NCBI GenBank assembly: GCA_016214985.1
Contig: JACRMM010000030.1
Coordinates: 62,001 to 126,000 of the forward strand
Source of the DNA: Deltaproteobacteria bacterium
Lineage (GTDB): Bacteria; Desulfobacterota; Deferrisomatia; Deferrisomatales; JACRMM01
Direction of reading: 5' to 3'
Length of the DNA: 64,000 nucleotides
In this document: piece by piece, positions 35,590-47,928 of the stretch
How the letters are laid out: every line of letters begins with the position of its first letter
Position numbering within the stretch: position 1 is the stretch's first letter
Translations under genes and position numbers: made by a program
Notes under the pieces: generated by a model
Databases searched by the model: none
The model's input: only the letters and a program-made list of their open reading frames with translations
What the model was told of the DNA's origin: nothing

Positions 35590-36813
35590 ATGGCGCTGGT
35601 CGTCCAGAAGTACGGAGGAACGTCGGTCGGCGACCCGGAGCGGATCCGCAACGTGGCGCGCCGGGCGGCACGGTACCGGGCCGAGGGGAACGACGTGCTG
35701 GTCGTGGTCTCGGCCATGTCCGGGGCTACGAACGGTCTCATCGCCCTCGCTCACCAGATCACCGACCTGCCCGACGAGCGGGAGATGGACGTGCTCCTCG
35801 CCACCGGGGAGCAGGTAACGATTGCGCTCCTGGCCATGACGCTCCTGTCCCTGGGCGTGCCGGCCGTGTCCATGACCGGTGCCCAGGTCCGGATCCTCAC
35901 CGACTCGGCCTTTACCCGGGCGCGCATCTCCGATATCGATACGGCGGGGATCCGGGCGGCCCTGTCCCAGGGCAAGATCGTGGTCGTCGCCGGGTTCCAG
36001 GGGGTGGACGCCGAGGGGAACATCACGACCCTGGGTCGCGGTGGATCCGACACGAGCGCGGTGGCCGTGGCCGCCGCGCTCAACGCTGACGTCTGTGAGA
36101 TCTATACGGACGTCGACGGCGTGTACACGACCGACCCCAACGTGTGCGACCGAGCGCGCAAGCTCGATCGGATCTCCTACGACGAGATGCTCGAGCTCGC
36201 GAGCGTGGGCGCCAAGGTGCTCCAGATCCGCTCCGTGGAGTTCGCCAAGAAGTACCGAGTGCCCATCCACGTGCGCTCGTCCTTCAGCGAGGTCGAGGGG
36301 ACCTGGGTGGTGGAGGAGGAAGGAAACATGGAGCAGGTGGTGGTATCGGGCGTGGCCTACGACCGCAATGAAGCCAAGGTGACGGTGCGCGGCGTCCCGG
36401 ACCGTCCGGGGATCGCCGCCCGGATCTTCGGGGCACTCTCGGAAAAGAACATCGTGGTCGACGTCATCGTGCAGGACGTGGGCGAGGGCGATCGGGCGTC
36501 GATGACCTTCACGGTGCCGAAGACCGATCTGAAGAAGGCGCTGTCGGTGATCGAACCCGTCGCCCGGGAGCTGGGCGGGGCCGAGGTCCGGTCGGACACC
36601 GGCATCGGGAAGGTCTCGATCGTCGGTGTCGGCATGCGAAGCCATGCGGGGGTGGCGGCGAAGATGTTCGACGTCCTCTCCCGCGAGGGCATCAACATCC
36701 TCATGATCTCGACCTCCGAGATCAAGGTGTCCTGCGTGATCGAGGAGAAGTACCTGGAGCTCGCGGTGCGCGTTCTCCACGACGCGTTCGGACTGTCGAA
36801 GGAAGAGGGCTAG
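35590..36813 (+). CDS. lysC: Aspartate kinase
   Basis: [33 protein letters not shown]-terminal ACT domains. Confidence 0.97.
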
Positions 36814-43943: not shown

Positions 43944-44186
43944 ATGCTCGTCAAGGTCACGGCCAAACGCCAGGTCACGTTTCCCGCCCAAGTGTTGGAG
44001 GCGCTGGGAGTGAAACCCGGCGACCGACTGGAACTTCTGGAGAGCCCAGACGGCTTCCTCCTGCGCCCCCGCCACGTGAATCCGGCCCGCCTGGCGCCCC
44101 TGCGTGGCAAGCTTCGCCGAGGTACGGGCACCTTCGATCTTGAAACCTTCCGCACCGAAGCCCATGACCCCGCGCTTCGGGATTGA
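43944..44186 (+). CDS. AbrB/SpoVT/MazE-type antitoxin
   Basis: MLVKVTAKRQVTFPAQVLEALGVKPGDRLELLESPDGFLLRPR. Confidence 0.82.
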   Translation: MLVKVTAKRQVTFPAQVLEALGVKPGDRLELLESPDGFLLRPRHVNPARLAPLRGKLRRGTGTFDLETFRTEAHDPALRD

Positions 44187-44562
44187 CACCTCCGTTCTCG
44201 TCCGGCTGCTGACCGGAGACCCAGAGGAGGGCTTCGTGCATTGTGCGGCCGCGCTGACCGCGCTCGTCGAGGAGGACGGAGCCGAGGTGCTCGCGTCGAA
44301 TCAGGTCATCGGAGAAGCCTACGTGGCCGTCCAGCACCATTACGGCGTGACCCAAGCCGAGGCTCGCGCGGCCCTCTCGAGCGTGCTGGGCAGCGGGCTC
44401 GTGTCGCCGCTGAACGGCGCCGGCGTGTTCGGCGCATTGGAAGCAGAGGGCGGGTGCGGGCTGCTCGACCGCCTCATCGCCGACGACTACCGCCGCGCAG
44501 ACCTGGTCACCCTCACCCTTGATGAGCGCATGGCCGTTCTGCCGGGCGCTCGCCTCTTGTAG
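44164..44562 (+). CDS. PIN-domain toxin (VapC-like)
   Basis: FGIDTSVLVRLLTGD; acidic residues along the chain; 23-nt overlap with the antitoxin. Confidence 0.82.
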   Translation: MTPRFGIDTSVLVRLLTGDPEEGFVHCAAALTALVEEDGAEVLASNQVIGEAYVAVQHHYGVTQAEARAALSSVLGSGLVSPLNGAGVFGALEAEGGCGLLDRLIADDYRRADLVTLTLDERMAVLPGARLL

Positions 44563-44715: not shown

Positions 44716-45150
44716 TCACAGGTGGGAGTGTACCCAGGCGAGCAGATTCGGGAGCGGCACAGCCCCGGACTGGCGGGCCACTTCGCGGCCGCCCTGAAAG
44801 AGGATCAGCGTTGGCAGGCCCTCGACGCGGTGCTGCGCGGCGAGCGTTTTCTCCTCCTCGGTGTTCACCTTGGCCAGGCGCACCCGGGGTTCCAGACGGC
44901 CGGCCGCCTGCTCGAAGGTCGGTGCCATGGACCGGCAGTATCCGCACCAGGGGGCCCAGAACTCCACGAGCACTGGCAGGCCCGAGCCCTCGACGTGACG
45001 TCGGAACGTGGCCGCCGTGAGCACCAGCGGGTGGCCCTGGAAGAGCTTTTGTCTGCACTTGCCGCAGTTCGGGGCCTCGCCCAGCCGGGCGGCGGGGACG
45101 CGGTTCGCGGTGTGGCAGGAGGGGCAGACGACGTGGACGAGGTCCGGCAT
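44716..45150 (-). CDS. trxC: Thioredoxin with N-terminal zinc-ribbon (TrxC-type)
   Basis: VVCPSCHTANRVP...NCGKC zinc ribbon; VEFWAPWCGYCRSMAPTFE, active site WCGYC. Confidence 0.88.
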   Translation of the reverse strand: MPDLVHVVCPSCHTANRVPAARLGEAPNCGKCRQKLFQGHPLVLTAATFRRHVEGSGLPVLVEFWAPWCGYCRSMAPTFEQAAGRLEPRVRLAKVNTEEEKTLAAQHRVEGLPTLILFQGGREVARQSGAVPLPNLLAWVHSHL

Positions 45151-45180
45151 GGGCTTACCTCTGGCTCGGCGCGGCCGGGC

Positions 45181-45624
45181 TCAGGTGCCCGAACCCAGCA
45201 CGCCGAGCCGTTCGATGTTGACCCCGGCGAGCGCCCTCATCGGGCAGGCGGTCTCGCACTGCCCGCAGGCGGCGCACTTCTCGGGCAGGAACGCAACCTC
45301 CATGGAGACCGCGTCGACCCGGAGCGCTCCGGTGCGGCACACCGCCGTGCAGGCGCCGCAGTGGACGCACCGGTCGTCGTCGCGGCTGATGTTCTCGGCG
45401 ATCGAGGTCACCTCAACTCCCGCGTCCTCCAGGTAGGCCACGCCCCGCGCCACGGCCTCCGGCGAACCGGTGAGCTCGAGGATCAGCCGGCCCTCCCGCC
45501 GGGGGAAGATCTTCGCCTCCAGGATGTTGAAGACGAGGTCGAACTCCCGCGCCAGGCGGTAGATCACGGGCTGGTACATGACCTCGGGGTTGAAGATGAG
45601 CAGCACGTTCTTCGACATGTCCAT
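45181..45624 (-). CDS. NIL-domain 4Fe-4S ferredoxin-like protein (homocysteine pathway type)
   Basis: NIL-type fold region plus CVHCGACTAVCRTGAL and CAACGQCETACPMRAL. Confidence 0.88.
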   Translation of the reverse strand: MDMSKNVLLIFNPEVMYQPVIYRLAREFDLVFNILEAKIFPRREGRLILELTGSPEAVARGVAYLEDAGVEVTSIAENISRDDDRCVHCGACTAVCRTGALRVDAVSMEVAFLPEKCAACGQCETACPMRALAGVNIERLGVLGSGT

Positions 45625-45721
45625 GGGGCTCCCTTCGATCGCCGCTGTCCGGTGTCCGCCTTCCGCTCTCAGCCAGGGACCTTGCAACCGTCTGTCGAGG
45701 ACCTGAGTCCTCCCGGCGGGT

Positions 45722-46528
45722 TCATGAGGGATCGCCGAGTGCTGACTGCGGATGGCCAATCTCCACAAACTCCACGTCGCCCCGCGCCGCCATCCGGTCC
45801 CCCAGGATCGCGACCGCCCCCCGAACCCCTGGGACGGCCAGGGCCCAGTCCACCGCCGCCTCCAGATCGCCGGGACCCTGGATGCGGTTTCCGAGGGCGG
45901 TGGCCATCGCGTCGGCCAGGGCCGCGTCCGCCGCGAGCACGATCGCGGCGTCCGCACAGCCGAACGAGAGGCTCGGTCCCACGGTACCCGAGGAGGTGCA
46001 CAGACCCAGGGGTGTGCGCTCCGCAGTGACGCGAAGGCCGAGCCGCCCGGAAAAAGGGGAGGCCCCGGCGAAGACACCCGCGACCGCCTCCTCCTCGAGA
46101 TCCAGGTAGAGGTCTCCGCCGTTCTCGACCAGTACCTCTGCGGCGTGCCGCCGGAGCTCCTCGCCCACCGTCTGGGCGATGGCGCCGGCCACGGCCGCCA
46201 TGGGGCCGACCTCCGCGGTCCGGGCGGCCCGGTACATGCGCTCGAGCAGCGCAGGCAAAGGCTCCGCCGGCAGGGGCAGTGGCCGGAGCGCCGTAGCGAA
46301 GGCTGGGTGCCTCTCGATGTGGGCGTCGAGCAGACCGCGCGCGGCCAGGGCCGCGGTGAGCGCCTCGGCCGACAGATCCCGGTCGGCGAGCAGGTAGAGG
46401 TCGGTGGTCTCGACGCAGGCTCGAAACGGGACGCGCCGGCCTCCGGTCGCCTCGAAGCGGCGGTAGGTCCGTTCTGTGTAGCCCAGGGCGCCAGGCAGAC
46501 CCGGCGTGTGCCGGGCGTCCCCGCTCAT
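45722..46528 (-). CDS. UPF0280 (ApbE-related) family protein
   Basis: YTERTYRRFEATGGRRVPFRACVETTDLYLLADRDL; MAAVAGAIAQTVGEEL; VENGGDLYLDLE. Confidence 0.87.
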   Translation of the reverse strand: MSGDARHTPGLPGALGYTERTYRRFEATGGRRVPFRACVETTDLYLLADRDLSAEALTAALAARGLLDAHIERHPAFATALRPLPLPAEPLPALLERMYRAARTAEVGPMAAVAGAIAQTVGEELRRHAAEVLVENGGDLYLDLEEEAVAGVFAGASPFSGRLGLRVTAERTPLGLCTSSGTVGPSLSFGCADAAIVLAADAALADAMATALGNRIQGPGDLEAAVDWALAVPGVRGAVAILGDRMAARGDVEFVEIGHPQSALGDPS

Positions 46529-46743
46529 GCCGTCCTCCCTATAAAGAAACTCCCGTCCTGTCAGAGCGGTCGGATGCCCCGCCGCTCCACGGGACGATCC
46601 TTGGGCATCTGAGGCGTCTTGCGGCGGCACGAATGGGCTGACGCGCCGTCGCACGCCCCGTGCCGGAATCGCGTCTCGCTCCGCTCTGGGGCACCCGACC
46701 GCTCGCGTTTCGTCCTTCGGGATGACCGGAGGTCATGGGCAAC

Positions 46744-47928
46744 TCAGTCGGGTCGCGGGACCGTGGGCAGCGGTTCCTGGGGGGCGCCGAGGGTGAACTG
46801 GCCGGCCTGGATCCACGACTTCAACAGACCTGCGATCTCCCGGGCTCGCGGCAGGCTCGACAGGGGCGTCGCCGGGACCTCCTTCCCGCCGACGACCACG
46901 GTGCCCGCCACCAGGTCCGCGTAGCTCACGTCGGCGAGGGGTTTGGGCTCGCCCCTCGGGTAGTCGGACCCGTAGTCGATGACGGGGCAGGTGATCTCCC
47001 GGTTGGAGACGCCGGTGAACCAGGCGAGCTCCTCGTTCAGGATCGGGATCGGGACTCCCACGCCCACCATGAGGCTCGTCCCGTACCCCACCAGGCTCGC
47101 GCCCCGCAGGAAACGCGGCGACATCTGCTTGAGGTCGCCGGTGAGCATGAGCGTCCCGGCGCCGCCCGTGGGGACGCCGCGGGCGTTTCTCGGGGTGGCC
47201 GGTGCGTGCTGGGTTCCGGCCCAGGAGACGACGCCGACGCCGCCGCCGAGGAAGATACGGGTGCCGGTGCCCAGGGTCCAGTAGTAGGGGTCGTTCAGGA
47301 GAGGGGAGAGCTCGCCGGCCGAGGAGTACGTAGCGTTCGCCATCCGCGGCCGCAGCACGCCCATGTACGTGTAGATGGTCCGGTCCGAGAGGTTCACGGC
47401 GCAGTTGTAGTTCTGGTAGGCGTTGCGCGGGTTGTGGAGCACGGCGTCGCGGAGGTCGGCCAGGCCCATCTCGGCCTGGTGCTCGCGCAGGGGGTAGCAG
47501 TCGGTGCCGTAGGAGACTGCCTTGAGGGATACCTTCCGGCCGGTGACGAGGTCCTCGATCACATGGCCGCCGCCGTACTCGAAGCGGCCGGGGTGGACCT
47601 TGTTCAGCGGGTCGTCCTCACGGACCTGGGTGGCGCCGATGTAGCAGTCCACGGCGGCCACGCCGGCGTACGCCTCGACGTCGTTGAGCCAGACCTTCGA
47701 GGCCTTCATCCGCGGCTTGGTGTGGCCGAAGTTGAGGAACGCGCCCGAGGAGCACATCGTGCCGAACGTGCCGGTCGTGACCACGTCCACCCGGCGCGCC
47801 GCGGCCTTGGGGCCTTCGTCGGCCACCACCCCGATCATCTCCTCCGCGGTCACGACCACGGCCTTGCCGGCGCGGATCCGCGCGTTGATCTCGTCGATGG
47901 ACTTGGTGACGGGGGGCTGCGCGGACAT
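46744..47928 (-). CDS. DUF39 homocysteine biosynthesis protein
   Basis: SIDEINARIRAGKAVVVTAEEM; TTGTFGTMCSSGAFLNFGHTKPRMKA; NAYQNYNCAVN; VGVGVPIPILNEE. Confidence 0.9.
   Translation of the reverse strand: MSAQPPVTKSIDEINARIRAGKAVVVTAEEMIGVVADEGPKAAARRVDVVTTGTFGTMCSSGAFLNFGHTKPRMKASKVWLNDVEAYAGVAAVDCYIGATQVREDDPLNKVHPGRFEYGGGHVIEDLVTGRKVSLKAVSYGTDCYPLREHQAEMGLADLRDAVLHNPRNAYQNYNCAVNLSDRTIYTYMGVLRPRMANATYSSAGELSPLLNDPYYWTLGTGTRIFLGGGVGVVSWAGTQHAPATPRNARGVPTGGAGTLMLTGDLKQMSPRFLRGASLVGYGTSLMVGVGVPIPILNEELAWFTGVSNREITCPVIDYGSDYPRGEPKPLADVSYADLVAGTVVVGGKEVPATPLSSLPRAREIAGLLKSWIQAGQFTLGAPQEPLPTVPRPD

Follow-up and report, generated by a model that had tools for sequence, protein, structure and literature searches.

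The question raised by this locus is whether a thioredoxin gene situated directly behind three genes of a pathway to homocysteine, from which methionine is made, takes part in that pathway. In the window, i.e., the 64,000-nucleotide stretch of DNA that was analysed, which belongs to an assembly of 5.6 Mb (98.18% complete, 5.26% estimated contamination), family models recognise all four minus-strand genes that an earlier note had described there. They code for a DUF39/HcyBio protein of the COG1900a group (394 amino acids; 46744..47928), a distantly ApbE-like COG2122/UPF0280 protein (268 amino acids; 45722..46528), a protein consisting of a NIL domain and two [4Fe-4S] motifs (147 amino acids; 45181..45624), and a TrxC-type zinc-ribbon thioredoxin with a WCGYC active site (144 amino acids; 44716..45150). 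The intergenic gaps amount to 215 nt between the DUF39 and COG2122 genes, 97 nt between those for COG2122 and the NIL protein, and 30 nt between the NIL gene and trxC. A scan for sigma-70-like promoters and intrinsic terminators, a method of limited power in non-model organisms rich in GC such as this one, called none within the cluster. Neither tRNA genes nor Rfam RNAs, riboswitches included, were detected across the window. Convergent with trxC, a gene on the plus strand (44104-44562) shows a weak PIN-domain match (22.9 bits versus a cut-off of 23.6), and it may encode the VapC-type toxin of a toxin-antitoxin pair. An aspartate kinase-like gene with AA_kinase and ACT domains is located on the plus strand (35590-36813), roughly 8 kb away from the cluster; aspartate kinase feeds the synthesis of aspartate semialdehyde.

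The DUF39 protein matches PF01837 (HcyBio) with 505.8 bits (cut-off 26.2) over profile positions 1-349 of 349, i.e., at full length. It is 73-81% identical to DUF39 proteins of its order, the Deferrisomatales, and 56-81% identical to all homologs surveyed. In an alignment of 166 DUF39 homologs, the window protein included, C59 and C144 are the sole cysteines that are invariant in every sequence. In COG1900a proteins, Cys54 and Cys131 (MA1821 numbering) are nearly universal, and in the L-aspartate-semialdehyde sulfurtransferase (L-ASST) of Methanosarcina, Cys54 is essential while Cys131 is conserved and non-essential (PMC12068725). C59 and C144 would be the counterparts of these two residues, an equivalence that we infer from an alignment composed of homologs other than MA1821 itself, and the window protein is predicted from its sequence to be the catalytic subunit of an L-aspartate-semialdehyde sulfurtransferase. 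An AlphaFold2 model built on a 53-sequence alignment reached a pLDDT of 91.7 and a pTM of 0.91. A fold search of the PDB with this model gave no match at E <= 0.001, and a sequence search of the PDB returned antibody noise and no credible relative. As the predicted fold is without a match among solved structures, an experimental structure of a DUF39 protein would be informative. A long DUF39 reading frame in another surveyed locus (L060), considered as a possible fusion, was rejected because it overlaps likely genes on the opposite strand.

The COG2122 protein scores 266 bits with NF003323/PRK04334, marginally under the cut-off of 271, matches PDB entry 2o34 with 129 bits, and is presumed to be a sulfur-trafficking partner. 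The NIL protein (PF09383, 64 bits; Fer4, 48 bits) contains the motif CxxCxxCxxxC twice and is presumed to be the electron-delivery subunit. The genes for DUF39, COG2122, and the NIL protein form a tight co-directional operon in nine of 12 Deferrisomatales genomes, which are all nine that have DUF39, and in 28 of the 154 distinct DUF39 loci surveyed, the genes for COG2122 and NIL lie just downstream of that for DUF39. Around the operon, synteny between the window genome and its relatives is essentially limited to this three-gene block. Given the operon in the order genomes and the 73-81% identity of DUF39 within the order, the module is native and conventional. Three genomes from one genus of the order (G006, G007, and G008) do not possess DUF39 and retain MetX and MetY.

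Desulfovibrio mutants in each of the three genes, i.e., those for DUF39, the NIL-ferredoxin, and COG2122, require added methionine (PMC5764234), and the DUF39 and NIL-ferredoxin pair from Methanosarcina has been named L-aspartate-semialdehyde sulfurtransferase, electron supply in the pathway being attributed to the NIL-ferredoxin (PMC12068725). The assignment of DUF39, NIL-ferredoxin, and COG2122 to homocysteine synthesis, as the earlier note had proposed, is therefore supported, on the grounds of family models, the two invariant cysteines, the conservation of the operon, and genetic studies in the literature (PMC5764234, PMC12068725). The three proteins would constitute an L-ASST homocysteine module, in which a conserved cysteine of DUF39 may carry sulfur as a persulfide, COG2122 may help in sulfur loading, the DUF39-borne sulfur would be added to aspartate semialdehyde, and electrons from the NIL-ferredoxin would reduce the resulting product. 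These mechanistic steps are extrapolated from published work on homologs, and what the locus itself displays is family membership, conserved cysteines, and an operon. The module would operate in parallel to a complete homoserine-MetX-MetY route, and TrxC would be a general thioredoxin and no component of the pathway, its gene having come to follow the operon in this lineage and probably sharing a transcript with it. Taken as a whole, an L-ASST module beside a classical route, with TrxC as a general thioredoxin standing outside, seems to us a likely explanation of the locus.

With regard to the absence of a metX/metA/metB/metZ-type route, which the earlier note had suggested checking, the genome turned out to encode homoserine dehydrogenase, MetX (500 bits, cut-off 331), and MetY (658 bits, cut-off 495), and the DUF39 module is hence not its sole route. 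Further PLP-dependent enzymes of the Cys/Met type, CysK, and assimilatory sulfate genes are encoded as well (contig C17). Contamination as the origin of MetX and MetY was judged unlikely, since MetY is 81-85% identical in relatives from the order and MetX is found in 11 of 12 order genomes; MetY-type matches occur in 12 of 12. In a sample of 395 genomes from the phylum, 264 with and 131 without HcyBio, a strong MetX match is present in 63 of the former (24%) versus 60 of the latter (46%; Fisher p = 1.7e-5, ignoring phylogeny). MetX is thus rarer among HcyBio genomes yet occurs in about a quarter of them, which suggests that the two routes tend to replace each other and often coexist, and the present case documents genomes that retain two homocysteine routes.

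With a complete classical route encoded in this genome, and its enzymes widespread in the order, one might suppose that MetX and MetY make the homocysteine and that the DUF39 module no longer does so, having been left with some other thiol-forming job, comparable to that of methanogenesis marker 16 for coenzyme M. COG1900 proteins are indeed able to act on other aldehydes (PMC12068725). However, the window protein shares at least 56% identity with every homolog surveyed, has both cysteines intact, and scores only 126 bits with the methanogenesis marker 16 model, whose cut-off is 364, and coexistence of DUF39 with a strong MetX match is common in the phylum sample. A change of function therefore seems improbable to us, and homocysteine synthesis by the DUF39 module, alongside the classical route, is the preferred reading.

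The thioredoxin itself scores 137.9 bits with NF008229 (cut-off 125) and resembles TrxC (thioredoxin 2) in combining an N-terminal four-cysteine CxxC...CxxC zinc ribbon (Zn_ribbon_Thio2) with a thioredoxin domain, but it differs in having WCGYC instead of WCGPC and Glu and Leu at the usual nearby Asp and Ile positions. Two members of the order have clear TrxC orthologs (63-66% identical), encoded on other contigs and with no shared neighbors. Where these orthologs have VDFWAPWCGPC and IPT, the window protein has VEFWAPWCGYC and, at the cis-proline loop, LPT. Among 30 other TrxC-like loci, most of which encode WCGPC, clear departures at the active site were limited to one family (CGHC) and one degenerate protein. 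The WCGYC motif resembles the sites of protein disulfide isomerase-like proteins, and together with the nearby substitutions it could mean altered redox properties or specialisation.

How often trxC sits next to DUF39, a frequency that the earlier note had wished to see determined, is answered by a survey of 147 other distinct DUF39 loci, each covering 2.5 kb or more downstream of DUF39, none of which has TrxC or any thioredoxin there; in two surveyed loci, a plain TrxA is encoded almost 8 kb upstream. In the closest relatives, the three-gene operon is retained and no trxC adjoins it, and no DUF39, COG2122, or NIL gene was found within 1.5 kb flanks of the 30 other TrxC-like loci. Because the linkage is lacking from both sets of loci, the adjacency is a feature of one genome, which is the sole genome of its genus sampled. 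A role of TrxC as the partner of DUF39 in this lineage, reducing a disulfide or persulfide on DUF39 or relaying sulfur, would fit the close spacing on the same strand, the uninterrupted cluster with its likely co-transcription, and an active site that has diverged from all orthologs found, but it is quite unlikely considering that no other surveyed DUF39 locus shares the adjacency, that the genetic study of the Desulfovibrio pathway does not mention a thioredoxin (PMC5764234), and that electrons are already attributed to the NIL-ferredoxin (PMC12068725). The suggestion of the earlier note that the adjacent thioredoxin serves as reductant or sulfur-relay partner is thus left unsupported by the adjacency survey, by the relatives, and by the presence of a classical route, and an attractive hypothesis can be removed. 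Of the outcomes that the earlier note had named as refuting it, a complete classical pathway in the genome and an adjacency confined to this strain are both observed; for the latter, the note had also required independent transcription of trxC, whereas the short gap makes co-transcription likely. TrxC is probably not part of the homocysteine pathway. Since the gap of 30 nt makes co-transcription of the NIL gene and trxC plausible, TrxC may still have a lineage-specific function alongside the operon.

With regard to the sulfur donor of this pathway, the neighborhoods of DUF39 offer a lead that is directly testable. When the neighbors of DUF39 were clustered over the 154 distinct loci, a recurrent co-directional gene directly downstream of DUF39, at an offset of about 0-100 nt in most cases, was identified as larE (TIGR00268, 256 bits, cut-off 150). 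LarE is encoded near DUF39 in 37 of these loci from 16 families, nearly always immediately downstream (for example, L268:7107-7919 and L217:7103-7975, both on the plus strand). NIL or COG2122 genes are also near DUF39 in two of the 37 loci with LarE versus 33 of the 117 without it (p = 0.003, ignoring phylogeny). Both parts of the CxxC-C signature, known from a Thermotoga LarE that has been characterised as a [4Fe-4S] sulfur-inserting enzyme (PMC9283937), are present in 35 of the 37 DUF39-linked LarE proteins. Beside LarE, 16 of the DUF39 loci also encode a second PP-loop protein, which is ThiI-like and has an NFACT-R-type domain (e.g., L217:8138-9139, plus strand), and a relative of this protein is encoded in the sulfate-assimilation cluster of the window genome (L011:2145-3173, minus strand). 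The LarE pattern itself is absent from the window and from the order loci that were read, and none of the papers searched names LarE, sulfur transferase, and homocysteine together. As LarC is encoded in 343 of the 395 genomes of the phylum sample and does not discriminate between the possible roles, DUF39-linked LarE may merely serve the synthesis of the nickel-pincer cofactor. Judged by gene neighborhood, LarE is nevertheless a better candidate than thioredoxin for the sulfur donor of DUF39. We tentatively suggest, on the same basis, that homocysteine synthesis by DUF39 might use exchangeable sulfur-delivery modules, i.e., either the operon with COG2122 and NIL-ferredoxin, as in the lineage of the window, or a downstream LarE-type [4Fe-4S] PP-loop transferase supplying activated sulfur or persulfide. 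The two side leads, i.e., the linkage to LarE and the unsolved fold of DUF39, are worth more than the original thioredoxin hypothesis.

Among known systems, the L-ASST of Methanosarcina acetivorans (MA1821-MA1822; PMC12068725) resembles the window cluster in its COG1900a subunit with two conserved cysteines and in its NIL-ferredoxin subunit, but MA1821 has a CBS domain, and none was matched in the window DUF39. The Desulfovibrio pathway (PMC5764234) is likewise bacterial, employs the same three protein families, and includes the COG2122 partner. In contrast to the single operon of the window genome, the locus tags of D. vulgaris indicate three separate loci, and whereas D. vulgaris is without the classical route, the window genome also encodes MetX and MetY. 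The window cluster is an ordinary bacterial member of a known, recently recognised three-gene route to homocysteine.
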